A stretch of 58,742 nt of DNA from an uncultured bacterium (GTDB lineage Bacteria > Calescibacteriota > Calescibacteriia > Calescibacteriales > Calescibacteriaceae): NCBI GenBank assembly GCA_938036315.1, contig CALHPK010000010.1, forward strand, positions 1 to 58,742. The letters are read 5' to 3'. Of this stretch, positions 641-52,244 are shown in pieces. The position numbers and the translations under genes were made by a program. Position 1 is the first letter of the stretch. The number at the start of each line of letters is the position of its first letter. The notes beneath the pieces are model-generated. The model did no database searches and was not told the origin of the DNA. It saw only the letters and a program-made list of their open reading frames with translations.

Positions 641-808
641 CTGTCTTGAGGATTCTGTAGCTTGATTTTCAGGTATGTTGGTATTCGTAATCGCAACTGG
701 GGCAAAATGTTTATTTATCGCAAAAATGAGAATCTGAAATTTTACGAAAAAGATTTTTGCTTATTGTGAAATGAAAATTTGATTTTTTATAAATACAGTG
801 GATTGATA

Positions 809-1381
809 ATGTTCAGAATGAATCCAATTCTGATAAGGTTTGCCATTTTCATCTTTGTGTCCTCTATTTTTGTTGGGGGACTTTTGGCTGTCCAGCAATT
901 TCCGCAGGTTAGAGAGTTTGATTTTTGGAAAGCAGTGTTTTACAAGAATCCATACCCAGAAAAGCCACCTCAGCCTATTATTTTCCCTCATAACATTCAT
1001 GTGAAAAATTTGGGAATAGATTGCAGATTCTGTCACTATTATGTAGAAAAGTCGAAATACGCCGGTGTTCCATCAGTATCTGAATGTATGGGATGCCACA
1101 AGTACGTAGAATCTGTAAAGGATAGACCAGAAATCAAAAAACTCTTTCAGTATTATGAGGAAGGGAAAAATATCCCGTGGGTAAAAGTTCACAATCTTCC
1201 TGATTTTGTAAGGTTCACACACAGGATGCATATTAATGCAGGGCTTGATTGCTCGAACTGCCATGGAGACGTATCTTCTATGGATACTGTTCACAGGGTT
1301 GCTCCTTTATCTATGGATTGGTGCCTAAGTTGCCATAGGCAAAGTCAAGCCTCTACGGAATGTCAGGTTTGCCACTATTAG
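809..1381 (+). CDS. actA: alternative complex III subunit ActA, pentaheme cytochrome c
   Basis: First gene of an actABCDEF operon. The protein starts with one hydrophobic segment (about residues 8-28), a membrane anchor or signal. It carries five CXXCH haem-binding motifs: CRFCH, CMGCH, CSNCH, CLSCH and CQVCH. This is the ActA pattern, a periplasmic multihaem subunit that passes electrons from quinol oxidation. The frame is open from a TTG at 779, but ATG 809 gives the expected N-terminus; ATG 818 is also possible and none has a strong ribosome binding site. Its stop lies just before actB and overlaps an upstream in-frame ATG of actB. Length (about 190 aa) fits the family. Confidence 0.93.
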   Translation: MFRMNPILIRFAIFIFVSSIFVGGLLAVQQFPQVREFDFWKAVFYKNPYPEKPPQPIIFPHNIHVKNLGIDCRFCHYYVEKSKYAGVPSVSECMGCHKYVESVKDRPEIKKLFQYYEEGKNIPWVKVHNLPDFVRFTHRMHINAGLDCSNCHGDVSSMDTVHRVAPLSMDWCLSCHRQSQASTECQVCHY

Positions 1382-1398
1382 TTGGGGGGAAGATAGCA

Positions 1399-4300
1399 AT
1401 GGGGAAGAAAGAAAAGATTGATGTGGGGAAAAGAGAGCTTTTTAAGCTTTTTGGCAAAACATCGGTAGCCTTGGGAAGTCTTGCGGCCATACAAAGTTGT
1501 GTCAGAAAACCAGAGCCACAAAAACTTATCCCGTACCTTAACACTCCAGAAAAAATCATCCCAGGGATCCCATACTGGTTTGCAACAACGTGTTCGGGTT
1601 GTCCTGCTTGTTGTGGGATTTTGGTGAAGACCGAGGATGGAATTCCCAGAAAGGTGGAGGGTAACCCTCAGAATCCCATAAGCGCTGGCAAGACATGTGT
1701 TAGGGGCCAAGCGATATTACATCAGCTCTACTCTCCTGATAGAATTAAAAAGCCATTGGTCAATGTTGGTGGGAAATTTTCTGAGATTTCCCTTGAGGAT
1801 GCCATATCAAAACTTGTAGATAAGCTTTCACAAACCGATCCGAAAGAAGTATATCTTATCACATCTAATATAACCGGAAGGACAGAAAAATTTTACCAAG
1901 ATTTTGCTCAAAAACTGGGCATACCAGACGAGAATATATTAAGATGGGAAACTGTTTCTTTTAATCATATAAAGGTAGCTTGTGAAAAAGTTTTTAGTAA
2001 AGGTGCAATTCCTATCTTCAGGTTAGATAAATCTGATTTTATAGTTTCTTTCTCGGCGGACTTCCTTGATGTTGGTCCATCTACAGTTTTATACTCTAGA
2101 TGGTTTGTAAAATCTCACGCTGTTGACGAGGTTGAAGGTGAAGCTAAAAAAGGAGCTTTTGTACACATTTCCCCTCATCTTAACCTCACAGGAGCTAATG
2201 CTGACAAGTGGATTAGGGTGAAAGCCGGATCAGAAATTTTTGTAGCAGCGTACCTTCTCAACAAGATAATTGATAAACTCGGAAGGTTTGAAGATCTCAA
2301 GGTAGATATTGAAGGCGATCTTCAAAGTTTAGCAGGGGTTGATCAAAATGAGATAGATAGACTTGCTGATTTTGTTTTGACTTCACATTCTCCATTATTT
2401 ATCCCGCCTTCTACTGGTGATGAGAATCTTACCAATTTAACAATTATTGTTATGCTTTTGAATTATGTAGTCGGTTCAGTAGATAAGCTTGTGATCTTTG
2501 AACCCTCTTTTTCGTATGAAAAACTCGCTACAATAGATGATATTTTGAAATTTGTTAGGAAGATCAGAGATGGTAAGGTTAAAGTTCTTCTTATTATCAA
2601 TTCATATGACCCGGTGTACTCTATCCCTCGCTCAACTGGGTTCCAGTCGGCTTTAGGGCAGGTGCCGTTTGTTGTATCTTTTACATACCATGAGAACGAA
2701 ACAATAAGGTATTCTCATCTTGTTATTCCAGATTATCATGCACTTGAGAAGTGGGGAGATTCTGAGATCATAAAGGGGATTATTAGCTTTTATCAGCCGG
2801 TTGTAGCTCCGCTCTATAAAGATGCTATGCAAGTGGAAGATCTTCTGATTCAAGTTGCAAATAAGCTCAAAGAAGGAGCTTACCCATACAAAAGCTTTTT
2901 GGAGTATCTTAAAGCTGAATACTCTCTCCCCGATGAAGAGTGGCTCTCTGCTCTGGAAAAGGGAGGAATATTTAGCTTCAATCTTGATGAACTTGAAGGA
3001 AAACCAATCTCTTTAAATCCACAGTTGCAGATTAGAGATATTGTAAAATTCAAAAATAAAGTTCAGGATAGTATTTCCCTTGTTATTTATCCTTCGTATA
3101 AAAATTATGAAGGACGGATGGCTAACTCTCCTTGGATCCAAGAATTTTTTGATCCAGTGACACGATGTGCGTGGGGAAATGTTCTTGAAGTTAGCAAAGA
3201 TGTGGCGGAAAAGTTAGGATTCAAAAATGCAGACATAGCCGAAGTTGAAATTGACGGAAGAAAGTTTGAAATCCCAGTTTTCGTTTATTATGGATTGGCA
3301 TATAACACTGTTGCATTGGCTTTGGGAGGTGGGCATGAAAATTACGGTAGATTCGCAACTTCAAAAGGGGTAAATCCATTAAGGTATATTCCCATGAAAA
3401 TTGATGACAAATCTGGTGAGATCTCGTTCACAGTTGAGAACATACGTATTTTGAAGACTGGAAGAAGAATCAGACGCCTTACAACTAATGAAGGTGTTCC
3501 ACGGCAGCTCAAAAGAGATATTGCACATTTCACTTTGCTGTCACAACTTCCAATGCAAAGCTTTGAAAAAAAGTATAAAGATTTTGAGAAAATACTCAAA
3601 AAGAGATTCCCAAGGGGAGATTGGGAGAAATTCAATAGAGATTCAGGAAAGCCCAATCCATATAGATGGAAGATGGTAATCGATTTAGATAAATGTATAG
3701 GGTGTGGTGCTTGTATAGTGGCTTGCCAAGTTGAAAATAATATACCATTTGTTGGTGAAGAGGAGATCTACAGAGGTAGAGAAATTACCTGGATAAGGGT
3801 GGAAAGATATCTATTTTCTGAGGATGAAATACTTAAAGCTAAAAGTATACACAATCATAAGGAACATAATAAGGAACATAATAATGTAGAGAATAATTCA
3901 GCAGGAGAAGTAGATGCTAAATTTCTCGATAAAGTGGTCTTTGTGCCGATGATGTGTCAGCATTGCGAGTATGCTCCATGTGAATATGTTTGCCCTGTCT
4001 ACGCTACTGTCCACTCATCTGATGGACTTAATATCCAAGTTTACAACAGATGTGTTGGGACTCGTTTCTGTGCTAATAACTGCCCATATAAAGTTAGGTA
4101 TTTCAATTTTTATGATTATTACAAGAATGTTCCTGAGCCATTGAACTATGTGCTAAATCCAGACGTAACCTTTCGTTCAAAAGGGGTGATGGAAAAATGT
4201 TCTTTTTGTGTTCAGAGAATAAATTTTGCCCTTCAGAATGCTAAGATAGAAAAAAGAGGGGTAAGAGATGGAGAAGTTATCCCTGCTTGTGCACAGGTTT

Positions 4301-4491
4301 GTCCAGCTGACGCAATAATATTTGGTAATGGGAAGGACGAGAATTCTCAGGTATCAAAAACATCTAGATCAAAAAGAGCGGATTGGGCTCTGAAAGAATT
4401 GGGGGCAGAACCATCTGTGACGTATCTTGAAAAAGTATTTAATTCTAAGCTTTTTGTAAGTAGGGGTGGGGGTAAAGATGGGAATGGCTAA
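1399..4491 (+). CDS. actB: alternative complex III subunit ActB, Mo-enzyme-like/Fe-S fusion
   Basis: About 1,030 residues. The N-terminus 'GKRELFKLFGKTSVALGSLA' resembles a Tat signal with Lys-Arg in place of the twin arginine. Next comes a molybdopterin-oxidoreductase-like domain (about 40-740) with CSGCPACCG near its start, which in this family does not bind molybdenum. A ferredoxin domain (about 755-1000) holds CIGCGACIVAC, CQHCEYAPCEYVC, CVGTRFCANNCP, CSFC and CAQVCP clusters. It relays electrons in the periplasmic arm. ATG 1399 is preferred because GGGGGAAG lies just upstream; the frame is open from ATG 1360. A low-complexity His/Asn/Glu insertion near residues 820-835 arises from a 12-bp tandem repeat. 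The stop overlaps the start of actC. Confidence 0.93.
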   Translation: MGKKEKIDVGKRELFKLFGKTSVALGSLAAIQSCVRKPEPQKLIPYLNTPEKIIPGIPYWFATTCSGCPACCGILVKTEDGIPRKVEGNPQNPISAGKTCVRGQAILHQLYSPDRIKKPLVNVGGKFSEISLEDAISKLVDKLSQTDPKEVYLITSNITGRTEKFYQDFAQKLGIPDENILRWETVSFNHIKVACEKVFSKGAIPIFRLDKSDFIVSFSADFLDVGPSTVLYSRWFVKSHAVDEVEGEAKKGAFVHISPHLNLTGANADKWIRVKAGSEIFVAAYLLNKIIDKLGRFEDLKVDIEGDLQSLAGVDQNEIDRLADFVLTSHSPLFIPPSTGDENLTNLTIIVMLLNYVVGSVDKLVIFEPSFSYEKLATIDDILKFVRKIRDGKVKVLLIINSYDPVYSIPRSTGFQSALGQVPFVVSFTYHENETIRYSHLVIPDYHALEKWGDSEIIKGIISFYQPVVAPLYKDAMQVEDLLIQVANKLKEGAYPYKSFLEYLKAEYSLPDEEWLSALEKGGIFSFNLDELEGKPISLNPQLQIRDIVKFKNKVQDSISLVIYPSYKNYEGRMANSPWIQEFFDPVTRCAWGNVLEVSKDVAEKLGFKNADIAEVEIDGRKFEIPVFVYYGLAYNTVALALGGGHENYGRFATSKGVNPLRYIPMKIDDKSGEISFTVENIRILKTGRRIRRLTTNEGVPRQLKRDIAHFTLLSQLPMQSFEKKYKDFEKILKKRFPRGDWEKFNRDSGKPNPYRWKMVIDLDKCIGCGACIVACQVENNIPFVGEEEIYRGREITWIRVERYLFSEDEILKAKSIHNHKEHNKEHNNVENNSAGEVDAKFLDKVVFVPMMCQHCEYAPCEYVCPVYATVHSSDGLNIQVYNRCVGTRFCANNCPYKVRYFNFYDYYKNVPEPLNYVLNPDVTFRSKGVMEKCSFCVQRINFALQNAKIEKRGVRDGEVIPACAQVCPADAIIFGNGKDENSQVSKTSRSKRADWALKELGAEPSVTYLEKVFNSKLFVSRGGGKDGNG

Positions 4492-5932
4492 GGATAATAA
4501 TAAAGCGAATACGGTGGAGACGGTAAATGATAAAGGTAACATAGTAAGTAGTAATGATAGAAGATTGATAAGAGTTGATATTCATGAAGGGATGTCTCCT
4601 CAAGCGCTTGAGTATGGGAGACAATTTTCTCTATCAGAGATTTCAGAGGAGATATTTAAGGTATCTGGTAAGGCTTCTTTAGCTTATTTTTTAGGACTAG
4701 GCTTTTGTATAGCTTTAGTCTTAGCTGGTGTCATCACGTTTGGGGTTTTAGTTATAAAAGGTATGGGGGCTTCTGGATTTACACCCCCTGCTTTTTGGAC
4801 ACTTTACATTGTAAATTTCGTTTTTTGGGTAGGTATTGCTCATTCAGGAACATTGATATCTGCAGTTTTGCACCTTTTTAGGTCAAAATGGAGAAGAGGA
4901 ATTTTTAGAATTGCCGAGGCTATGACAGTTTTTGCTGTTATGACTGCAGGACTCTTCCCGCTTATCCATTTGGGGCGACAATGGTATTTTTACTGGCTTG
5001 TGCCATACTCAAACAGAGGAATGTGGGTAAATTTCAAATCTGCTCTTATGTGGGATTTTGTTGCTGTTCTGACTTATTTTACTGTGAGCCTGATTTTCTT
5101 TTATGTTGGAATGATCCCAGATCTGGCGGTGTTCCGTGAGAAAGCAAAAGGTATAAGGAAATTTATTTATTCAGTTTTATCTTTAGGTTGGAAAGGAACA
5201 GATAATGAATGGCGTCATTATAACAGAGCTTATATGTTTTTTGCTGCATTTGCTACTCCATTAGTTGTTTCTGTTCATTCTGTCGTATCATTAGATTTTG
5301 CCTCCGGACTTGTTCCTGGTTGGCAAAGTACAATATTCCCGCCTTATTTTGTCGCTGGTGCTATATTTTCTGGTATGGCTATGGTTGTTTCAATTATCAC
5401 TCCGCTGAGAAAGTTTTTTAAGCTCGAAAAATTTATAACTGAGTGGCACTATGATCATATGGGAAAAATTATACTGGTAACCGGACTTATAGTTACTTAT
5501 TCCTACATAGTTGAATTTGTACTGGCAATCTTTTCTGGAAATGAATATGAATTTCAGCAGTTTATCTACAGGGTAAGCGGGGATTACAAATTTCCATTTT
5601 GGCTTATGGTTTTTTGCAATTGTGTCTTCCCTCTGCTTTATATATCTCGGAGAGTGAGAGTTAACCCGTGGCTGAGCTTTGTTATCTCGATTTTCGTAAA
5701 TATAGGTATGTGGCTTGAAAGGTTCAATATAATTCACATATCTTTATCTTATGATTTTCTTCCATATGCATTTGATGTATATAAACCTAAATTAGCCGAA
5801 TGGATAATAACCGCTGCATCCTTTGGGTGGTTCTTTATGTGGTTTCTACTTTTTGCAAAATTTTTGCCTGTTATATCTATTGCTGAAACTAAAGAACTTG
5901 TACCAAAACCCGTAAGAGAAAACAAGCATTAA
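4478..5932 (+). CDS. actC: alternative complex III subunit ActC, NrfD-type membrane protein
   Basis: About 484 residues with around ten hydrophobic segments; an NrfD/PsrC-type quinol-binding membrane subunit. Typical ActC stretches include 'PPAFWTLYIVNFVFWVGIAH', 'LFRSKWRRGIFRIAEAMT', 'PLIHLGR' and a later 'GWQSTIFPPYFVAGAIFSG'. It is thought to oxidise quinol and possibly to couple this to proton movement. The start overlaps the actB stop; ATG 4478 sits 4-5 nt after a G-rich ribosome binding site, and ATG 4484 and GTG 4466 are alternatives. The hydrophilic N-terminus is Asn/Asp-rich and longer than usual before the conserved 'LEYGRQFSLSEI' region. Confidence 0.93.
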   Translation: MGMAKDNNKANTVETVNDKGNIVSSNDRRLIRVDIHEGMSPQALEYGRQFSLSEISEEIFKVSGKASLAYFLGLGFCIALVLAGVITFGVLVIKGMGASGFTPPAFWTLYIVNFVFWVGIAHSGTLISAVLHLFRSKWRRGIFRIAEAMTVFAVMTAGLFPLIHLGRQWYFYWLVPYSNRGMWVNFKSALMWDFVAVLTYFTVSLIFFYVGMIPDLAVFREKAKGIRKFIYSVLSLGWKGTDNEWRHYNRAYMFFAAFATPLVVSVHSVVSLDFASGLVPGWQSTIFPPYFVAGAIFSGMAMVVSIITPLRKFFKLEKFITEWHYDHMGKIILVTGLIVTYSYIVEFVLAIFSGNEYEFQQFIYRVSGDYKFPFWLMVFCNCVFPLLYISRRVRVNPWLSFVISIFVNIGMWLERFNIIHISLSYDFLPYAFDVYKPKLAEWIITAASFGWFFMWFLLFAKFLPVISIAETKELVPKPVRENKH

Positions 5933-5948
5933 AAAGGAGGTAGTAATT

Positions 5949-6470
5949 ATGGCGAAGATAGTAGTTGGAAAATTTTCATACATTGATGATGTCGAAAAGG
6001 CTATAAACGAATTACTAAATTCTGGATACAGCAAAAAAATGATAAAGTTTATATCTCCTTTCCCGGTCGAGGATATAATGGAGAAACTTAGTGGAACTGA
6101 CAGTCCTGTCAAATTTTCCGTATTCGTAGGCGGAGTTTTAGGTTTTTCGGCAGCTATAGCATTAGTATCAGTAACATCACTTGCATATGTGCTACCTGTA
6201 GGAGGGAAGCCGATACTAGCATGGATACCTTATATTATTGTTATGTTTGAACTCACAGTACTTTTGGGCTCTCTTTTTAATCTTCTTGGAGTTTTAGGGT
6301 TTTCACGCCTCCCTGATCCTTTTTTATTTTTAGGATGGAGACCATTTCATCCAGAATTTACAGATGATAAATTCGGACTGGCTGTTGTTACAGATAAAGT
6401 AGATGAAGTTTATGCAATTTTCCAGAGGAATGGAGCAGAGGAGGTAAATGAATATGCTTTCAATGTGTAG
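5949..6470 (+). CDS. actD: alternative complex III subunit ActD (DUF3341)
   Basis: 173 residues, DUF3341 family. An N-terminal cytoplasmic ferredoxin-fold-like region with 'YIDDVEKAINELLNSGYS' is followed by two transmembrane helices (about 58-82 and 90-118) and the typical 'RLPDPFLFLGWRPFHPEF' with a short C-terminal domain. It is a small membrane subunit whose exact role in the complex is unknown. A strong AAAAAGGAGG ribosome binding site precedes ATG 5949. The 3' end overlaps actE by about 23 bp, suggesting translational coupling. Confidence 0.9.
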   Translation: MAKIVVGKFSYIDDVEKAINELLNSGYSKKMIKFISPFPVEDIMEKLSGTDSPVKFSVFVGGVLGFSAAIALVSVTSLAYVLPVGGKPILAWIPYIIVMFELTVLLGSLFNLLGVLGFSRLPDPFLFLGWRPFHPEFTDDKFGLAVVTDKVDEVYAIFQRNGAEEVNEYAFNV

Positions 6471-7038
6471 GAATATATTTTCTAACTTTGTGTGTATAGT
6501 TTTGAAACTGATGCTTATTTTAGGATCTGCTAATTCAGCTTATGCGTGGCCATGGAGCAGAGATATGTTTGTAACTCCTGTTGTTAAAAATGAAAGAACA
6601 ACAGGTGCAGAACCCATAGGCGTTCCCCAGGGAGGATTGAACCCTGTAGTACCGGCGAGGGAAAAATTTCAGAATCCTATTCTGGTTAAAAACTCTTTGG
6701 CTGGGCTTAGAAACCCTGTGAGACCTACAGGGGAGTCCCTAAAAAATGGAGAGAAATTATATAAAATTTATTGTCAGCCATGTCATGGAGTGGAGGGCAA
6801 GGGAGATGGAGAAGTTGCAAAGAGGATGGTACCCCCTCAAGATCTCACTTCTGATTATGCTAAGAGCAAAACTGATGGTTACCTTTTTGCTACAATTGCC
6901 GGTGGTGGACTTATAATGCCGGCTCAGAAAAAAGCCCTCTCAGATAATGAGATATGGGATATTGTGAACTTTATTAGGAAATTACAGGGGTTTGATGTCA
7001 TGAAAAAATGGGAGGAGGAAAATAAGGGAGGAAATTAG
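6448..7038 (+). CDS. actE: alternative complex III subunit ActE, monohaem cytochrome c
   Basis: 196 residues. A signal or anchor segment ('CIVLKLMLILGSANSAYA') is followed by a class I cytochrome c domain with one CQPCH motif (about residue 109) and a 'GGGLIMPAQ' Met ligand region. ActE is the likely electron exit point to a periplasmic acceptor or to cytochrome c oxidase. The gene overlaps actD. ATG 6448 is very close to AGAGGAGG, so ATG 6454 is an equally good start. The next gene follows after three bases. Confidence 0.9.
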   Translation: MNMLSMCRNIFSNFVCIVLKLMLILGSANSAYAWPWSRDMFVTPVVKNERTTGAEPIGVPQGGLNPVVPAREKFQNPILVKNSLAGLRNPVRPTGESLKNGEKLYKIYCQPCHGVEGKGDGEVAKRMVPPQDLTSDYAKSKTDGYLFATIAGGGLIMPAQKKALSDNEIWDIVNFIRKLQGFDVMKKWEEENKGGN

Positions 7039-7041
7039 GAT

Positions 7042-8232
7042 ATGAGACACTTTGAATTTTCTTCCGATGAAGCACGAAGACCTCTTTTTGAAAAGATAAA
7101 TCCTGTAGCTTATCTTATTCTTATTGTTTCAATTTTGATCTTCGGTTGGGGGATAAAAACAGATCCAAAGAGGGCATGGGCTATTTTCCATGTCAATTTA
7201 TTGTTTTTTCTTGGCATAGCTCAGGGAAGTGCAGTTTTTTATGCTCTTGTGAAAGTTACGAAAGGATATTGGTCAATTCCGATTTTAAGAATAATTCCTT
7301 TTGGGATTTTGCTTCTGCCGGCTATAAGTATTCTATTTTTTATTGAGTGGATTTTTGCAGGAAAAATTATTTTCCCTTATTTTGATCATCAGCAAATTGA
7401 GCATCACAGATATGGCTGGCTTTCTCCTACATTTGTTTTTGCAAGAGATGCCATAGTTTTGATTATTATGAATATACTAAGCTTAAGGCTTGTTTCCTTA
7501 TCTTTAGCCACTGATAATATAAAGATACCGTTTTTACCCTCTTCTCATTTACCACTGCCTGAGATAAGAAAAAAAATTGATTTTTTGAGTAAAATTTTGA
7601 TTGTATTTTTTATTGCAGGTTATACTCTTTTTGGTTGGGATCAGGCTATGTATCTTGATCCTCATTGGTACAGTACTATATTCGGGGCTCGGTTTTTCAT
7701 AACTATGCATATTTCGTATCTTGCTACTTTAGCTATTATAAGCTCTATTCTGATGTTGAAGAATGACTTTGCTCATAAGGTAGGAAAGAAATATCTTACC
7801 AATGTTGGAACTTTACTTTTTGGGTTCTGTATATTCTGGTCATATCTTTTTTATGCCGAGCTTGTTGTAATATATATGGGAAATATCCCAGAATTCACTC
7901 ATTGGTATGTTGATAGAATTTATTCTTCATGGAGTCCTGTTTTCTGGATTCAAGTATTCTTTGTCTTTATTATTCCGTTTCTTACTTTACTTCATATTCC
8001 AATAAAGACAGATCCTAAGGCTTTATCATTTATAGCTTTGGTAGTCCTTGTGGGGCTTTTTGTGAGAACTTATGATGTAGCATATTTTGAAATTGTAAAG
8101 CCGGAAAAGCCATTGTTTGGCTTTCTAGAAATCGGAGTTACGTTGGGCTTTATCTCTTTTGCTTACATCCTTTCGAAATTCTACTTGATAAAAGTTCCGC
8201 GTTATCCAATATATGAAGCTGAAAATTTCTAA
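7042..8232 (+). CDS. actF: alternative complex III subunit ActF, membrane protein
   Basis: 396 residues with about ten predicted membrane segments, the second large quinol-type membrane subunit of the complex and a homologue of ActC. Family-like stretches are 'AWAIFHVNLLFFLGIAQGS', 'YFDHQQIEHH' and 'SLDPHW'-like 'YLDPHWYSTIFGARF'. A ribosome binding site (AGGGAGG) precedes ATG 7042. It closes a complete six-gene set ABCDEF; no cytochrome oxidase genes follow, unlike many act operons. Confidence 0.92.
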   Translation: MRHFEFSSDEARRPLFEKINPVAYLILIVSILIFGWGIKTDPKRAWAIFHVNLLFFLGIAQGSAVFYALVKVTKGYWSIPILRIIPFGILLLPAISILFFIEWIFAGKIIFPYFDHQQIEHHRYGWLSPTFVFARDAIVLIIMNILSLRLVSLSLATDNIKIPFLPSSHLPLPEIRKKIDFLSKILIVFFIAGYTLFGWDQAMYLDPHWYSTIFGARFFITMHISYLATLAIISSILMLKNDFAHKVGKKYLTNVGTLLFGFCIFWSYLFYAELVVIYMGNIPEFTHWYVDRIYSSWSPVFWIQVFFVFIIPFLTLLHIPIKTDPKALSFIALVVLVGLFVRTYDVAYFEIVKPEKPLFGFLEIGVTLGFISFAYILSKFYLIKVPRYPIYEAENF

Positions 8233-13267: not shown

Positions 13268-14317
13268 CTAAGTTGTGGTGCTTTCGATATCTACATATAT
13301 GTCTTTTTCTTTGAGTATTTCGTTCTTAACTTTGGGTTTCTTCACTAGTTCAAGTCTGACAATAGCGGAAGAGTACCAAGGTTGGTCAAATTGGCTTTTG
13401 ACAGGAGCTAATTTCCATGCCAGAGTTTTTGTATGATATTCCCAAATCTCATATTTATTGAAATCTCGTATTATATCCGTTATTACTGCTCCGGCATCAA
13501 TGACGAATTTTTGAAGTTCAGCCCACTTTGAAACTGATGAGTCGATCAGAGTCATTCCAATATATCCTGCGCTACCCGGACCTTTTAGACTCCAGATCCC
13601 TTTTTCTATAAATATTTTGAAAGGTTTCTTAGCTTCTGGGGGATCTGTTACTAGAACATCAAACTTTCCTTTGAGGGAATCTGGAAGTTTTTTTCTTAGG
13701 TCAAAGACCTCCGCTCTTACAGGGAGTTTTTTCTCTTGAGCGATTTTGTTTGTGAAATCGATAAGTCTTTTATCTATATCAAGAACAAGTACATCCTGCG
13801 GAAGCATTGTAAGTCCTAAAGCTATTCCAACAAGGTCATCGTCTCCTAAAATGATGATCTTTTTCCCAGATATGTCATTGCGAAGTTTCATAAGAGCAAC
13901 TCTTCCAACAGTACTTGCAGGATCTATATTTCCCTGGTCATACTCTTGAATAGGTTTCGGTCTGTACTTATGTATCTCGAGAAAATCTTCGAGTATACCG
14001 AGCGAATTGATATTTATTCCTTTTCCTTCGCATTGTGGGCATATGAGTTCTTTAGAGTAGGGTAGGATATTGCTATACTTCTGATTAAGTTTTTCTTGCG
14101 GAATAATTTTGTCATCTTTGAAATCCACGTATCTTAATCTTTTTAAAATCTTTAAGGTTTCTGCAACTGTGGGGATCGGTCTTTGCGAGAACCTAACTAT
14201 TTGCCAGAAATTTTCAGAGGTCTTGATTGCGGATATTATATCTTCAATTGCTTTTGGACTTGTTTTCACTCCTGTTTTTTTTTCTACTTCAGCAGAGATT
14301 TTTGTAAGATCATCCAT
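13268..14317 (-). CDS. bpsA: N4-bis(aminopropyl)spermidine synthase, BpsA family
   Basis: 349 residues. A winged-helix-like N-terminal domain (1-85) is followed by a zinc-ribbon-like CPQCEGKG (93-100), the conserved 'YDQGNIDPASTVGR' region, the GDDD motif (158-161) in 'ILGDDDLVGIALGL', and 'DPPEAKKPFKIFIEKG'. The GDDD motif and DPPE are active-site signatures of BpsA, which adds aminopropyl groups from decarboxylated SAM to spermidine to give a branched quaternary polyamine. Such polyamines stabilise nucleic acids in thermophiles. BpsA is best known in Thermococcus and some thermophilic bacteria. It sits between tRNA-Glu and hisZ. Confidence 0.88.
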   Translation of the reverse strand: MDDLTKISAEVEKKTGVKTSPKAIEDIISAIKTSENFWQIVRFSQRPIPTVAETLKILKRLRYVDFKDDKIIPQEKLNQKYSNILPYSKELICPQCEGKGININSLGILEDFLEIHKYRPKPIQEYDQGNIDPASTVGRVALMKLRNDISGKKIIILGDDDLVGIALGLTMLPQDVLVLDIDKRLIDFTNKIAQEKKLPVRAEVFDLRKKLPDSLKGKFDVLVTDPPEAKKPFKIFIEKGIWSLKGPGSAGYIGMTLIDSSVSKWAELQKFVIDAGAVITDIIRDFNKYEIWEYHTKTLAWKLAPVKSQFDQPWYSSAIVRLELVKKPKVKNEILKEKDIYVDIESTTT

Positions 14318-18203: not shown

Positions 18204-18845
18204 ATGCTCAATTCAATGGAGAGGGTTGAACCAAAGCGTATAAAGATTTTGATTTCTCAGCTTCAGGGGTTTAAAAATCCCAAGCTTCAGCTTGAACAAT
18301 ATGAGACAGACGGTGAATCTGTGGGCTTTTTCCTTCAGAGGGCTTGGAAAGATCTGGTCTCAGCTACCGTGGTAGATTTGGGATGTGGAACAGGGAACTT
18401 AACTTTTGCTTCGGTTTTGGCTGGAGCTAGACTCGCTGTTGGTGTAGATATAGACAGAGAAGCTCTGAAGATCGCTATTGAAAACAAAGAATTCCTGATA
18501 AATTCGGGTTTTGATGTTGTAAGTGCAAACTTTGTGTGCGCAGATGTTGAAAATGTATTCTTTAAAAGAAAATTTGATGTCTGTATTATGAATCCTCCTT
18601 TCGGTATTCAGAAGAGAAAAGCTGATAGAATTTTTCTCACTAAAGCATTTGAAGTTGCTGATGTAGTATGGACTTTTCTCTCTTACGGGTCTAAACCTTT
18701 TGTTCAGAAATTCGCTGAAGAGAATTCATTTTCGATAACGGATTTTTTCACAACAAAAATTCAGATTCATCAGAAGTTTTCATTTCACAGAAAAAAAGTT
18801 GAGTTTCTTCAAGTTGATCTTTATAGGATTCAAAGAATTTGGTGA
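18204..18845 (+). CDS. METTL5-type (archaeal/eukaryotic) adenine-N6 methyltransferase
   Basis: 213 residues and nearly collinear with METTL5: an N-terminal 'LQGFKNPKLQLEQYETDGES' (compare the VDGF-x-x-PK-x-x-LEQY-x-T of METTL5), motif I 'VVDLGCGTGNLTFASVLAGA', 'GVDIDREAL', the catalytic NPPF motif in 'IMNPPFGIQKRKADRIFL', and C-terminal 'FSFHRKKVEFLQVDLYRI' (compare YKFHKKK...VDLIRF). METTL5 methylates a decoding-site adenosine in 18S rRNA. A target in this bacterium is unknown; rRNA is a guess. ATG 18216 is an alternative start. The stop codon is part of a 21-bp tandem repeat. Divergent from atpB. Confidence 0.85.
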   Translation: MLNSMERVEPKRIKILISQLQGFKNPKLQLEQYETDGESVGFFLQRAWKDLVSATVVDLGCGTGNLTFASVLAGARLAVGVDIDREALKIAIENKEFLINSGFDVVSANFVCADVENVFFKRKFDVCIMNPPFGIQKRKADRIFLTKAFEVADVVWTFLSYGSKPFVQKFAEENSFSITDFFTTKIQIHQKFSFHRKKVEFLQVDLYRIQRIW

Positions 18846-46547: not shown

Positions 46548-49500
46548 GTGCTTAGCAAAGGTCTTGCAGACGGCTTTTATATCCCAAAAAAGAGGCTCTT
46601 ATTTCTTCTTTCTCTCCCGATTATCCTATTGGGATGCGCAAGGGGATGCGGAGGAGTACCCCAAAAAATAGTACAAGAACAGAATGAAATACTGATAAGT
46701 GGGATTGTGAAAAATAGCGAAGATGAAGCCCCCGTTGAGTCAGCAATCGTTTCTGTAAAAGTAGATCTGAACAATAATGGCTTCTTTGAACCGGAAGAAA
46801 CATTTATAGATACCACAAGAAAAAATGGGTTCTTTGCCGTGAGAATTCCGATTATAGACAAACCTGCATCCGAAAAGACAATCACTGAAAAAGTTATAAC
46901 CACAAGAATTATCACAGGAAGGGTTCTTATCTCCGTTAGCAAAGAAGGGTATGCTCATAACTCCTTCAATACTGATGTGGGAAATTTTGCAGGAGAGATA
47001 AAAATATCACCAGCAAAAACAGCAGTTGATGAAGATGTTTCTGATGGCATTCAGTTTACATTGACAAGACAAAGAAATTCCCTTGCTCCAAAACTTTATG
47101 GTGGTAAAAATGCTGTTATGAAAAGAATAACAGCAAAGTCAGAAGGTGAGGAAATTCTTGCAACTGTGGATATTTCTCCAGATGATGTTCCCAAAGGGGT
47201 TCAAAGAGTATCGGGTGAAGCTACTTATATAGATCCCATATCGAATCCAGAACTTATGCCCGGGGGGTTTGCCGCTCGTCTCCAGGAAGGAATTATTACG
47301 CTGAGTTCAGCTGGAGTTGTATCCGCTGAGATTTACGATCAGAATGGAAACCCTATAAAAGCAAAAGCAAAGGTAAAGGTAGCAGTTCCAGAAAGTGCTT
47401 ATCACACCCTTTATGACTATGTAGAGGAAACCACAGATAAAGTCGAAGTCCCTTTTTGGCACTTTAATGAATTTGATGGAACATGGCGCCAGAGTGATAA
47501 ACTTGGGATCTTGGTAGATGAGAACGGACAGGTGATAACGCCGGTAAGACTTGCAAAAATAGTCACAGGAAAAGAGAAAACAAAACTCTACACCGAAACG
47601 GAAGTTTCTCATTTCTCAGCGTGGAATGTCGACTACCCTGTTGATACACACGCTTCTGTGATGGGCAGAATAGTTGATTCAGAGGGCAACGGTATTCCAG
47701 GACTTCACATTCAAACTATGGGTAATACATACGGAGGATTAGGAGATTGGAAAGGTACATATACAGATTCCAACGGCGTATTTGGAGTTGATGTGAAAAG
47801 GAGTGAGTCCCAGCAGCCACAGCAGCCATCTATCCCCTTTGAAAATGACTGCGTATGGGAAGTTAATCCAGATACTGTGAAGAAGATGTGCCCAGAAATT
47901 CTTGATTCGTGGTGGAATACCTTAAATCGAGATTTCGAAAGTATAAAAAGAGCGTTTGAACAGTCTTATAAAAATAAATGGATAGATCAAGCTACTTATG
48001 ATCTTGCAAAAGTTCACCTTGATAGAGCCCGAGAAAGCCTTGAAAGAGCAGACTTTAAGGGCGCAAAGGATAGTATAAACAAAGCTATCAATACTATAGG
48101 ATGGAGCGGAAGAGCTGCTGACCAAATATTTTGGGAAAGACTAGCAACATTGCAAGATGAGGCCACAAACTTCCTCAAAGACCAAATTATAGGAACACTG
48201 CAAGGACTTGCTCTTCAGACCATACCCGGATCAAATTGTTATGGCAAAATTTCACAGAGTACGCTGAACTTCATCATAGAAAATATAAAATTACTTTTCA
48301 ATGAGCAGTTGGCAAAAAGTCTCGATGAAGGTGCCATTGTAGGCACTGCACAAATAACATTAGCCCAGCTTCAAAATCTAGCCTCAACTCTGGCTGATGA
48401 AGATCTCATCAAATGCTTTGAAGATATTACAGCAAAATTAGAGGGTGGAATTTCAATTGGACCATTTGAGTGGAATAACAAGTTGAAAGTCAGTAAGTCA
48501 GCAGGTCCAATTTTCGTAGCTCAGACAGCTGCACTCTTTTTAGATCAGATTATGCAATCTTGGCTTGAGCGCGGAGAGTGGAAGCAAGCTAAAGCCTATG
48601 AAACAGTCGTGGACTCTGTTAATTCATATATGCAGAGTGTCGGAGCCACCCTAAGAAAAATTAAAGAAGCTGGAGTAGATGTGGGACAGTGCGCTGAGCT
48701 ACTTTATAGCACAAGATCCTGCAGACAAGGGGGAGGAAGTCCAGCCCCCCATTTCACTGCTCCCCCTTCCCCATCACTTCCATCTCGTACCCCTCTGAAG
48801 CCAAAATCTACCAACCCCGAAGAAGTAGCTACAGTTCTGCAGAGCATAATCGTTGAATTCCTTAAGATTTCCTATAATATCTTAGATGTAAAACTCAAAT
48901 TCATGAATCTCTCAGGAGGAGCAGAATTTTACTCCAACTGGGCAATGCCATCAACTTCAGCTAACACATCCTTCTCAAAAGTTTCACCACCTGACATAAA
49001 TAGAGGAGGAGCAGAAAGATCAAGAATATTGATAAATGGACGTTCAATAGATAAACTCCCAGTGACAACAACAGTCTCAAATACAGGTATTGACTGGAAC
49101 AATTTCGGCTCTCCTATACTCGGCTCAACAAGACACGAAGAGCTTTACCGTAGCTCAGATCTTATCAAAAATCCATCAAGATGGATAGGAGAGTTAGTAC
49201 TCAACATAAAAACATCAAAGGTTTCAGGAAGATTAATGTGCGGAGGAGGTGGAAAAATACCCTGTTCAAATTTACCACTGGTGATCAAGGGACAACTTTC
49301 ATCAGTTCCTACCACAACCAACGAAAAAGGTGAATTTGAAGTTTCAATACCACCAGGTAAAGTATGCCTGCATTCACATTTCATAACGGTAAAATGCTTT
49401 GAAATTAAGGGGGATACGAATCTTGGTGATATTGTGATTTCAAAAAATCTCCAGCCTCGTATCAACTCCTTGTCTATCCCAACTCAAGCTTCCATTGGAG

Positions 49501-52244
49501 AGACAATAAGCCTTGAGGTATCTGCTTCTGACCCAGATAATTACCCTTCCCCACTTTCATTTGAGTGGATTTTGCAGATATGCGGTCCAAGTTCATGCAG
49601 GACAAAATCCATAGGTAAAGCACCAAAAATTTCATTTACTCCCACAGCAGGTGGATGGAACTATATCTCAGTTTGCGTCTCCGATGGTATGGATTCAGTT
49701 TGTAGCTATAAAAATATGAAGGTACTTTCTACCACACCGCCCAGGATTATATCAGTACAGTATCCAGAAGAGATAACCGAGTATGAGAGAGCTAAAATAG
49801 AAGTTCAGGTGCAATCTCAAGATGGTAGTGATCTCTTTTATTACTTTTATCTTGAGGAAGCCCCCGGAAGAATTCACTACTTGGATTCAAGTTCGCAAGC
49901 AGTGTATGACCCGGTATACTGGAGACCTATAACCGAAGATGTAGTCGCAAAAATAAGAGTTAGGGTTGTCGATAGTTCCTGGAGATCGGACGAAAGAGAA
50001 ATACAAATCAGGGTGAAAAATATAATTTCAGAACCAAAAGTTTCAATCTTTGCCGATAGAGTATCAAGCTCTACTCTTCCTTTCACAGTCAATTTCTGCA
50101 CTAAAGGTGAAAACATTCTTGATCAATATGAGTGGGATTTTGATGGTGATGGAACTTATGATTTCTCATCCAGCTACAGATGCGCTTCGTTTACCTACAC
50201 AAAATACGGAAGGTTTAAGGTGAAAGTTAGAGCTCCAGGGATAGAAAAAGGTGATGCAGAGGATTCTTTAGAGGTTAGCGTGTTCTCTCCCCCTTCTGTT
50301 TCTCTGTACGCTGATAAATTAACAGGAACAAGACCCCTTGTAGTAAACTTTGAAGCAAAAGCGTATGATCCTGATGGCAGTATCATAAGATATATCTGGG
50401 ACTTTGATGGTGATGGTAGCAGTGATTATCAGTCAACAGCAAATACTGTAAGCTTCACATTCCCCATAACATCCCCTGCTAGATTTTATTTCCCCAGAGT
50501 CGTGGTATCTGACAATGACGGCTTATCGGCACTGGGTGTCACATCTGTTCAGATTGTGAATCTGCTCCCGTCTGTTTCTCTCTTCGCAGATCGTACCTCA
50601 GGTGTTGTGCCTATTACCGTGAATTTTGTAGCTCAGGCAAGCGACCAAGATGGCTCCGTTTCATATTACATCTGGAACTTTGGAGACGGGACAACAAGCA
50701 TAACTTATACAGACTCAACAACACATACATACACCTTATCCGGAAACTTTACCGCATATGTTGAAGCAGTAGATAATGAAGGAGGAAAGGCAAGATCAAA
50801 CCTTATAACAATAACCGTTTCTGCTCAGGTTGGATGTGATACCCCCCAAGTTTCGCTTTCGCTTACCCCGAGTTCCGGAACAGCTCCCCTTGATGTAACC
50901 TTTACAGCCACAGCTTATTCAAGCTTCAGCATCCAAGAATATAGATGGGACTTCAAAGGGGATGGAACTGTAGATGCAATATCACAGTCGAACACCACTT
51001 CTTATACATATCAAACCGGAGGACAATATTATCCAAAGGTTTGGGCAGTGAATTCCTGTGGCGGGGTTGGATACGCTACAGCTACAATCACTGTTCAGTC
51101 AGTACATCCACTATTTTCACAAAAGGTCTCTTCTGTTACTACTTATACTCCCTCCGTCTCCAATGATAATGGCTTTTTCATTGCCGATATGAATTCGGAT
51201 GGGAAACCAGATATGATTTTGGGCTCAGGAGAATATGCCTTTATTCTTACATATGACTCAGTAAGTTTTGGTTTTTCAGACTCAAGACAGGTTTTCTCTT
51301 CTGGTGAGATTATCAATGATATAGTTGCCGATGACTTCACAGGAGATGGGAAACTTGATGCTGTGTTCTTAGGTGGTTTTGATAAAGTGGCTTGCTATGC
51401 AGGGGACGGGAATGGACGCTTCAATTCAAGCATAACATGGGGTATAAGTTTACACAGCAACGGAATAGATTGCTTTCCATTTTCTGTGACTTCAGCTGAT
51501 CTGAATTCCGATGGGAAGAAAGACATAATTCTGGGGTGCTCAGGTAAGCCGGTTATCCTTTATGGTAATGGCAATTGCCAGTTTAACTATCAAAATCCTG
51601 TTACACTTCCTATTCCTATTCTTCACGGTTGGCAAACCAAAGTTATTGCAAAAGATATGAATGGAGATGGGTATCTTGACATAGTAGGCAACGAGCGTGA
51701 TTTCGGTTATCTGTGGATCGTAACGGGTCCATCGTATTCATCAGCCATAACCTTTGGTAATTCTATTACCTTTACCGATATTGATGTAGGAGACTTTAAC
51801 GGAGATGGCAAACCAGAGGTAGTCGGAATATCACAATCAAAGTATATCTATATCTTCAAGAATAATTATCCAAATTTCCCTATTTCATCTTCTGTATATG
51901 TTGATATACCTCCAACAACAACACCATACTCCTGTGGGATTGCTCTGGGAGATTTGAATTCTGATGCAATTCCCGACGCTACCACAATATGTTACTCAAG
52001 TGGAGTTACAAACATGAGCGCTATTGCGTTAGGTAAATCCAACGCAACCTTTGACAATCCATATTATTACTACAGTCAGACTTCTCATCCTTTTTATCCT
52101 CTTGCTGACTCAAACTTTAGTGCTATAGGAAGACCCCATATTTTCGTGGTGAATCTTGGAAACAGAAAAGGAGTTATCTTTGTCTTTGTAAATGCCAATA
52201 ACCAGGTTCAGATTGTGATTCTGAAAACCCGTGAGAGCGAATAA
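46548..52244 (+). CDS. giant PKD/FG-GAP surface lipoprotein
   Basis: 1,898 residues, start GTG after AAAAAGGAGG. Signal peptide with lipobox LLGC (Cys30). Then carboxypeptidase-regulatory/Ig-like domains (about 45-130 and 370-425, 'MGRIVDSEGNGIPGLHIQ'), a long helical middle (about 430-760), a Pro/Ser-rich linker (about 735-765, 'APHFTAPPSPSLPSRTPLKP'), another regulatory-like domain (about 885-960) and an Ig/cadherin-like domain (about 965-1060). Four PKD domains begin near 1162, 1248, 1341 and 1433 ('YEWDFDGDGTYDF', 'YIWDFDGDGSSDY', 'YIWNFGDGTT', 'YRWDFKGDGTVD'). Six FG-GAP/VCBS repeats follow (about 1540-1815, 'DMNSDGKPD', 'DFTGDGKLD', 'DLNSDGKKD', 'DMNGDGYLD', 'DFNGDGKPE', 'DLNSDAIPD'), which would bind calcium. 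Adhesion or polysaccharide binding is likely. Confidence 0.85.
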   Translation: MLSKGLADGFYIPKKRLLFLLSLPIILLGCARGCGGVPQKIVQEQNEILISGIVKNSEDEAPVESAIVSVKVDLNNNGFFEPEETFIDTTRKNGFFAVRIPIIDKPASEKTITEKVITTRIITGRVLISVSKEGYAHNSFNTDVGNFAGEIKISPAKTAVDEDVSDGIQFTLTRQRNSLAPKLYGGKNAVMKRITAKSEGEEILATVDISPDDVPKGVQRVSGEATYIDPISNPELMPGGFAARLQEGIITLSSAGVVSAEIYDQNGNPIKAKAKVKVAVPESAYHTLYDYVEETTDKVEVPFWHFNEFDGTWRQSDKLGILVDENGQVITPVRLAKIVTGKEKTKLYTETEVSHFSAWNVDYPVDTHASVMGRIVDSEGNGIPGLHIQTMGNTYGGLGDWKGTYTDSNGVFGVDVKRSESQQPQQPSIPFENDCVWEVNPDTVKKMCPEILDSWWNTLNRDFESIKRAFEQSYKNKWIDQATYDLAKVHLDRARESLERADFKGAKDSINKAINTIGWSGRAADQIFWERLATLQDEATNFLKDQIIGTLQGLALQTIPGSNCYGKISQSTLNFIIENIKLLFNEQLAKSLDEGAIVGTAQITLAQLQNLASTLADEDLIKCFEDITAKLEGGISIGPFEWNNKLKVSKSAGPIFVAQTAALFLDQIMQSWLERGEWKQAKAYETVVDSVNSYMQSVGATLRKIKEAGVDVGQCAELLYSTRSCRQGGGSPAPHFTAPPSPSLPSRTPLKPKSTNPEEVATVLQSIIVEFLKISYNILDVKLKFMNLSGGAEFYSNWAMPSTSANTSFSKVSPPDINRGGAERSRILINGRSIDKLPVTTTVSNTGIDWNNFGSPILGSTRHEELYRSSDLIKNPSRWIGELVLNIKTSKVSGRLMCGGGGKIPCSNLPLVIKGQLSSVPTTTNEKGEFEVSIPPGKVCLHSHFITVKCFEIKGDTNLGDIVISKNLQPRINSLSIPTQASIGETISLEVSASDPDNYPSPLSFEWILQICGPSSCRTKSIGKAPKISFTPTAGGWNYISVCVSDGMDSVCSYKNMKVLSTTPPRIISVQYPEEITEYERAKIEVQVQSQDGSDLFYYFYLEEAPGRIHYLDSSSQAVYDPVYWRPITEDVVAKIRVRVVDSSWRSDEREIQIRVKNIISEPKVSIFADRVSSSTLPFTVNFCTKGENILDQYEWDFDGDGTYDFSSSYRCASFTYTKYGRFKVKVRAPGIEKGDAEDSLEVSVFSPPSVSLYADKLTGTRPLVVNFEAKAYDPDGSIIRYIWDFDGDGSSDYQSTANTVSFTFPITSPARFYFPRVVVSDNDGLSALGVTSVQIVNLLPSVSLFADRTSGVVPITVNFVAQASDQDGSVSYYIWNFGDGTTSITYTDSTTHTYTLSGNFTAYVEAVDNEGGKARSNLITITVSAQVGCDTPQVSLSLTPSSGTAPLDVTFTATAYSSFSIQEYRWDFKGDGTVDAISQSNTTSYTYQTGGQYYPKVWAVNSCGGVGYATATITVQSVHPLFSQKVSSVTTYTPSVSNDNGFFIADMNSDGKPDMILGSGEYAFILTYDSVSFGFSDSRQVFSSGEIINDIVADDFTGDGKLDAVFLGGFDKVACYAGDGNGRFNSSITWGISLHSNGIDCFPFSVTSADLNSDGKKDIILGCSGKPVILYGNGNCQFNYQNPVTLPIPILHGWQTKVIAKDMNGDGYLDIVGNERDFGYLWIVTGPSYSSAITFGNSITFTDIDVGDFNGDGKPEVVGISQSKYIYIFKNNYPNFPISSSVYVDIPPTTTPYSCGIALGDLNSDAIPDATTICYSSGVTNMSAIALGKSNATFDNPYYYYSQTSHPFYPLADSNFSAIGRPHIFVVNLGNRKGVIFVFVNANNQVQIVILKTRESE

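Follow-up and report, generated by a model that had tools for sequence, protein, structure and literature searches.

Human METTL5, which is stabilised by TRMT112, methylates A1832 within the UAACA sequence of 18S rRNA, and the equivalent nucleotide is A1500 in E. coli numbering. Among the marks of the decoding region, m6A at A1500 belongs to the small number used to tell archaea and eukaryotes from bacteria. In the 30S subunit of Pyrococcus abyssi, m6A1469 is paired with Cm1376 and holds the phosphate belonging to the G of the start codon, as revealed by cryo-EM with support from LC-MS (PMC7005279). According to the same paper, A1500 of E. coli and its Thermus thermophilus counterpart, A1478, carry no modification, and C1402, with which 1500 pairs, is m4Cm in bacteria but Cm in the other two domains (PMC7005279). 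The 2008 survey by Grosjean and colleagues proposed COG2263, a family that includes HVO_1475 of Haloferax, as the writer of m6A1500 in that organism and described the mark as occurring "never in Bacteria" (PMC2584109). The enzymes RsmE (m3U1498), RsmH (m4C1402), and RsmA/KsgA (A1518/A1519) modify nucleotides of this same region that are neighbours or pairing partners, but belong to families different from METTL5. No report of a bacterial METTL5 was found in the open-access papers that were searched.

A METTL5-family protein encoded by a bacterium

The gene considered here lies at 18204..18845 on the forward strand of the window, by which is meant the whole 58,742-nucleotide stretch that was analysed. 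It is predicted to encode a METTL5/COG2263-family rRNA N6-adenosine methyltransferase of 213 amino acids with an ATG start, although Met5 (18216), which aligns with Met1 of human METTL5 in the sequence alignment, may be the true start. The preliminary description had noted LEQYxT, NPPFG, FHRKK, and VDLYR across the full length of the protein, and each is indeed present. LEQY occupies 18291..18302 (+; residues 30-33), where the fuller motif reads LEQYET, and EQY is invariant across the aligned archaeal, human, and bacterial copies. The SAM-binding motif I, DLGCGTG, follows at 18375..18395 (+; residues 58-64), and NPPFG, the catalytic motif of N6-adenine methyltransferases, at 18591..18605 (+; residues 130-134, corresponding to human N126-F129). 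Toward the C terminus, FHRKK lies in the substrate-binding stretch at 18783..18797 (+; residues 194-198, with H195 invariant), and VDLYR comprises residues 204-208. NPPF/NPPFG, EQY, D141, F144, and H195, invariant in alignments of 30 and of 69 sequences, are all unchanged, and of 33 alignment positions with 90% conservation or more across archaeal and human METTL5, the protein retains 27. As judged from sequence, this motif set is far above chance.

Searches with sequence and with fold lead to the same family. The top solved structure by sequence is PH1948 of Pyrococcus horikoshii (phmmer E 4.4e-43, residues 10-212), and matches were also obtained to human METTL5 (E 1.5e-28, residues 5-209) and to Ta1320 of Thermoplasma (E 3.9e-19). 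An AlphaFold model of the window protein, built from 30 relatives and having a pLDDT of 93.7, superimposes on PH1948 with a Z of 30.3 and an rmsd of 1.7 Å over 193 residues and on human METTL5 with a Z of 28.5; these two proteins account for its top four PDB matches, in which residues 7-213 are aligned. Ta1320 follows with a Z of 23.4, and the nearest fold outside the METTL5 family is a branched-chain polyamine synthase (Z 20.5). Likeness to the archaeal proteins PH1948 and HVO_1475 (the latter named from the literature [PMC2584109] and itself outside the alignments) extends to full length, about 42% identity, and the NPPFG, LEQY, and FHRKK motifs. With human METTL5-TRMT112, the writer of 18S m6A1832, the protein shares the domain, the catalytic motif, and a full-length alignment.

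In what kind of organism does the gene reside? The closest named copies are those of Candidatus Calescibacterium nevadense (60% identity) and bacterium HR19 (55%), and the host is therefore assigned to the Calescibacteriota (Calescamantes, EM19), a phylum known from springs at 70-90 °C (PMC4791363). The genes on the 58.7-kb contig look bacterial throughout and include lon, the F-type atpB, glyQ, and yajC. The earlier proposal of a bacterial and likely thermophilic host is thus borne out by both the contig and the known habitat of the phylum. METTL5 orthologues at 53-61% identity were present in all four of the other genomes of the family that were examined, making five of five with the window, and dN/dS between two close copies is 0.13. 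Conservation in all five genomes together with this ratio shows, at the level of sequence comparison, that the gene is under purifying selection in Calescibacteriota and is no contaminant.

Two trivial explanations can be weighed at this point. A generic bacterial small-domain methyltransferase of the PrmC, PrmA, RsmC, or RsmD type could mimic METTL5 through the shared NPPF and Rossmann motifs, and the Pfam and NCBIfam matches of the window protein do go only to generic methyltransferase domains (MTS, PrmA, and PrmC). Those matches, however, fall far below every listed NCBIfam cut-off (PrmC scores 41 bits where 199 are required, and PrmA 29.5 where 183 are), the METTL5 match spans the full length including the N- and C-terminal motifs, and the fold matches to RsmC, PrmC, and PrmA, at a Z of about 17.5, are more than 10 Z units below those to METTL5 proteins. 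A generic identity is refuted by these comparisons and is left with a negligible probability. Because the match to PH1948 and human METTL5 runs well beyond a generic SAM domain, the sequence and the model alike identify the product as a true METTL5-family protein, as the preliminary description had suspected in setting it apart from purely bacterial families. Archaeal contamination of the assembly fares just as poorly. Archaea do inhabit the same hot springs, but the flanking genes look bacterial, orthologues lie on separate contigs of four other genomes, where they have a conserved neighbour gene, and all Calescibacteriota copies form one clade with 100/100 support, so contamination is refuted as well and is vanishingly improbable.

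Distribution, the bacterial signature, and ancestry

METTL5 is common in archaea and scarce in bacteria. With the same profile search it was detected in 128 of 161 archaeal genomes and in 6 of 386 bacterial genomes, namely, the five Calescibacteriota and a genome designated G018, which is 97% complete and the only member of its phylum in the set. Outside the Calescibacteriota, that is 1 of 381 genomes, in a set that, beyond the window's own family, was sampled mainly at one genome per family and covers hundreds of families. Could the search threshold explain the scarcity? It does not, since archaeal copies score 1e-29 or better and are well clear of the limit of 1e-15. Within the WOR-3 phylum, the gene was found in a further 8 genomes out of 147, one of them labelled Thermotogota. 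The WOR-3 and G018 copies resemble those of Calescibacteriota in having bacterial hosts, bacterial gene neighbourhoods (G018 and three WOR-3 copies were seen to sit among bacterial genes), and changes at strand beta5. Carriage by viruses was considered and rejected; no METTL5 was found among IMG/VR contigs, where the 12 matches were all partial and to generic methyltransferase domains, none of them METTL5-like.

The changes just mentioned define a bacteria-specific segment that comprises the end of strand beta5 (152-160 in the model) and the following turn. In the window it is found at 18663..18707 (+; residues 154-168, VVWTFLSYGSKPFVQ). Archaeal METTL5 proteins have Tyr (93 of 95) and His (92 of 95) at the end of beta5, corresponding to human Y154 and H157. 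The Calescibacteriota and WOR-3 copies have instead Trp and Leu (W..L, 13 of 13), and G018 has His and Thr. All 14 bacterial copies then continue with Ser-x-Pro-Phe, the Pro of which occurs in only 4 of 95 archaea. The window copy therefore differs from archaeal METTL5 both in this replacement of Y..H by W..L then S-x-P-F and in residing in a bacterial host with a bacterial 30S subunit. Tyr-x-x-His is a conserved feature noticed in this analysis, as distinct from a published defining feature, and it is not required for membership in the METTL5 family, since three Methanomicrobia copies also lack the His. In the class I methyltransferase topology, strand beta5 has its C-terminal end next to the NPPF loop, which makes an effect of these changes on substrate recognition plausible by analogy. 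In short, a familiar enzyme family turns up where it was not expected, in Bacteria, and varies there in a consistent way.

How did bacteria come to have the gene? A tree of 69 archaeal, human, and bacterial METTL5 sequences was built; it is unrooted and contains only METTL5 proteins, with no outgroup from another family. In the phylogeny, an analysis that the preliminary description had recommended, the window protein branches among archaeal METTL5, and the Calescibacteriota copies form one clade (100/100) inside the tree of archaeal and human sequences. The best tree joins this clade to WOR-3 (97/88), with Archaeoglobaceae adjacent (92/81), and places the G018 copy with Woesearchaeota and their kin (99/97), so that bacterial copies are nested at two separate points of the archaeal diversity. 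Removal of the 15 signature columns leaves G018 in its Woesearchaeota grouping (99/98), but the grouping of Calescibacteriota with WOR-3 then appears in 0 of 1,000 bootstraps, with a p of 0.34 by which it is still not rejected. As this grouping depends on the signature columns, the apparent kinship may be convergence. The exact sister group of the Calescibacteriota clade also shifts between trees. A single clade of all bacterial copies is neither supported by the best tree nor rejected (AU p 0.40).

Nesting among archaeal copies and scarcity in bacteria both indicate an archaeal origin, and on these grounds it is strongly suggested that Calescibacteriota acquired METTL5 from archaea by lateral transfer; the strongly suggested direction of this transfer rests on the distribution and on a weakly resolved tree. 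Vertical inheritance from a bacterial ancestor, with loss everywhere except in these lineages, has several points in its favour: the all-bacterial clade retains its AU p of 0.40 (0.29 once the signature columns are taken out), the tree has no root, and the origin of METTL5 has been put before LUCA in one paper (PMC8868631). Against it stand the absence of the gene from all but one of the 381 other bacterial genomes, across hundreds of families, and from 139 of the 147 WOR-3 genomes, as well as the two separate nestings within archaea in the best tree. Inheritance of this kind is consequently regarded as improbable. How many transfers there were is another matter, for the bacterial signature reflects either one shared ancestor or separate captures that converged on the same change. 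G018, with H..T in place of W..L and a position beside Woesearchaeota, differs from Calescibacteriota and WOR-3 and may stem from a separate capture, with a DPANN archaeon as the donor. A bolder scenario, tentative and on balance doubtful, is that there were at least two independent captures from archaea, each remodelled at the end of beta5 for the bacterial 30S subunit. The outcome, if it were true, would be a P-site pair of mixed type, m4C(m)1402 - m6A1500, on which the bacterial and the archaeal methyl groups meet.

Predicted target, mark, and partner

The preliminary description had left open what a METTL5 protein might methylate in a bacterium. The likely answer is A1500 of UAACA, since the site is universal and is intact in Calescibacteriota 16S rRNA. 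The window's own assembly has no 16S gene, so those of relatives were used: in four Calescibacteriota and two WOR-3 genomes, GUCGUAACAAGGUA is found with A1500 intact, and the same six genes keep GAAGUCGUAACAAGGUA. UAACA, the target in human 18S rRNA, is thus also available in the host group. A separate peculiarity of the 16S genes L159 and L160, from two METTL5-bearing WOR-3 genomes, is UGUACUCACCGCCCGUCA in place of the near-universal UGUACACACC. We take this A-to-U change to be near position 1396, which falls within the widely used 1391R/1392R primer site beside the decoding region.

Might METTL5 simply stand in for one of the bacterial enzymes of this region? That idea was rejected, as both candidate writers, RsmE for m3U1498 and RsmH for m4C1402, are retained in the hosts. 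All 14 METTL5-bearing bacteria have RsmE, as do 18 of 20 WOR-3 genomes without METTL5, and RsmH occurs in all 34 of these genomes, counting one copy (in G001) that is in pieces below the cut-off. The G001 gene (contig C10:39858-40744) is split between frames with stops, the others being intact, and could be a pseudogene, a frameshift, or an assembly error.

The reading considered probable, from sequence and model, is that the Calescibacteriota protein descends from an archaeal transfer and uses SAM to methylate N6 of 16S A1500. The lineage would have gained the gene from archaea long ago and then kept it. With SAM as donor, the enzyme would place one methyl group on N6 of A1500, whose UAACA sequence lies next to the P site at the base of helix 44, and would do so on the maturing or free 30S subunit. 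Because the hosts keep RsmH beside METTL5, the 1402-1500 pair, at the mRNA phosphate of the P-site codon, is predicted to carry both marks, as m4C(m)1402 - m6A1500, with a methyl group on the exocyclic amine of each base. The 2'-O-methyl group of m4Cm is the work of another enzyme, RsmI. We know of no organism in which the bacterial m4C and the archaeal m6A occur together on this pair. An A1500 writer encoded by a whole bacterial phylum would be a predicted exception to the absence of the mark from bacteria, and would provide a natural experiment on it, with the same P-site pair bearing the mark of bacteria, that of archaea, or the two at once. The catalytic activity and target that we infer, like any role of the host's Trm112-like protein and any effect on initiation or thermostability, are predictions of this kind.

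A competing possibility is that the METTL5 descendant has been retargeted in bacteria and applies the same chemistry to another adenosine in 16S, 23S, tRNA, or other RNA. The loss of the near-invariant Y..H of beta5 and the gain of S-x-PF in every bacterial copy could mean altered recognition, should the lost residues be ones that touch the target. Moreover, the host 30S presumably lacks the archaeal and eukaryotic proteins of this region, such as eL41. It is that protein which contacts m6A1469 in P. abyssi (PMC7005279). On the other hand, nothing has changed in the catalytic motif, EQY, or the FH[KR]KK substrate stretch, and the 16S genes of the host group preserve the A1500 site together with its surroundings. 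Retargeting is therefore judged unlikely, though it is a more serious contender than vertical descent.

If the enzyme does methylate A1500, does it need a partner? Thermococcales are described as being without a recognisable Trm112 (PMC5372719), and Pyrococcus, a member of that order, has METTL5, so by analogy a lone METTL5 enzyme is plausible. The hosts differ from the human METTL5-TRMT112 system in that the only candidate partner they encode is a short YcaR-like protein of the Trm112 family (PF03966), present in all five Calescibacteriota and in G018. It is also found in 7 of the 8 METTL5-bearing WOR-3 genomes. Co-occurrence was nevertheless dropped as a sign of partnership; it is not specific, 12 of 20 WOR-3 genomes without METTL5 carrying the protein too. 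The function of bacterial Trm112 (YcaR) was described as unknown in 2017, in a paper that noted no bacterial relatives of the Trm112-dependent methyltransferases then known from eukaryotes (PMC5372719). Bacterial METTL5 would be a candidate partner for these YcaR proteins.

Neighbouring genes

In the four other Calescibacteriota genomes, a small, conserved, lipoprotein-like gene lies directly upstream of METTL5 (L029:7452-7961, L030:7433-7966, L162:8022-8594, and L163:13051-13488). This neighbour is missing from the window, and an operon was accordingly dropped as a clue to METTL5 function.

Several other genes of the window deserve mention in their own right. Encoded at 13268-14317 on the reverse strand, 4 kb from METTL5, is BpsA (PF01861, 4e-88), a branched-chain polyamine synthase that serves as a marker of thermophiles and has the fold that came closest to the METTL5 model outside the METTL5 family (Z 20.5). 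At 779-8232 (+) is a cluster that, judged by eye, resembles alternative complex III, with a multihaem cytochrome, a large iron-sulfur protein, NrfD-like membrane proteins, and a small cytochrome; its first genes are found again, their order unchanged, roughly 4 kb downstream of METTL5 in HR19 and G001. Finally, 46548-52244 (+) encodes what is, again by eye, a predicted lipoprotein of 1,898 amino acids with PKD-like repeats and C-terminal FG-GAP-like repeats.
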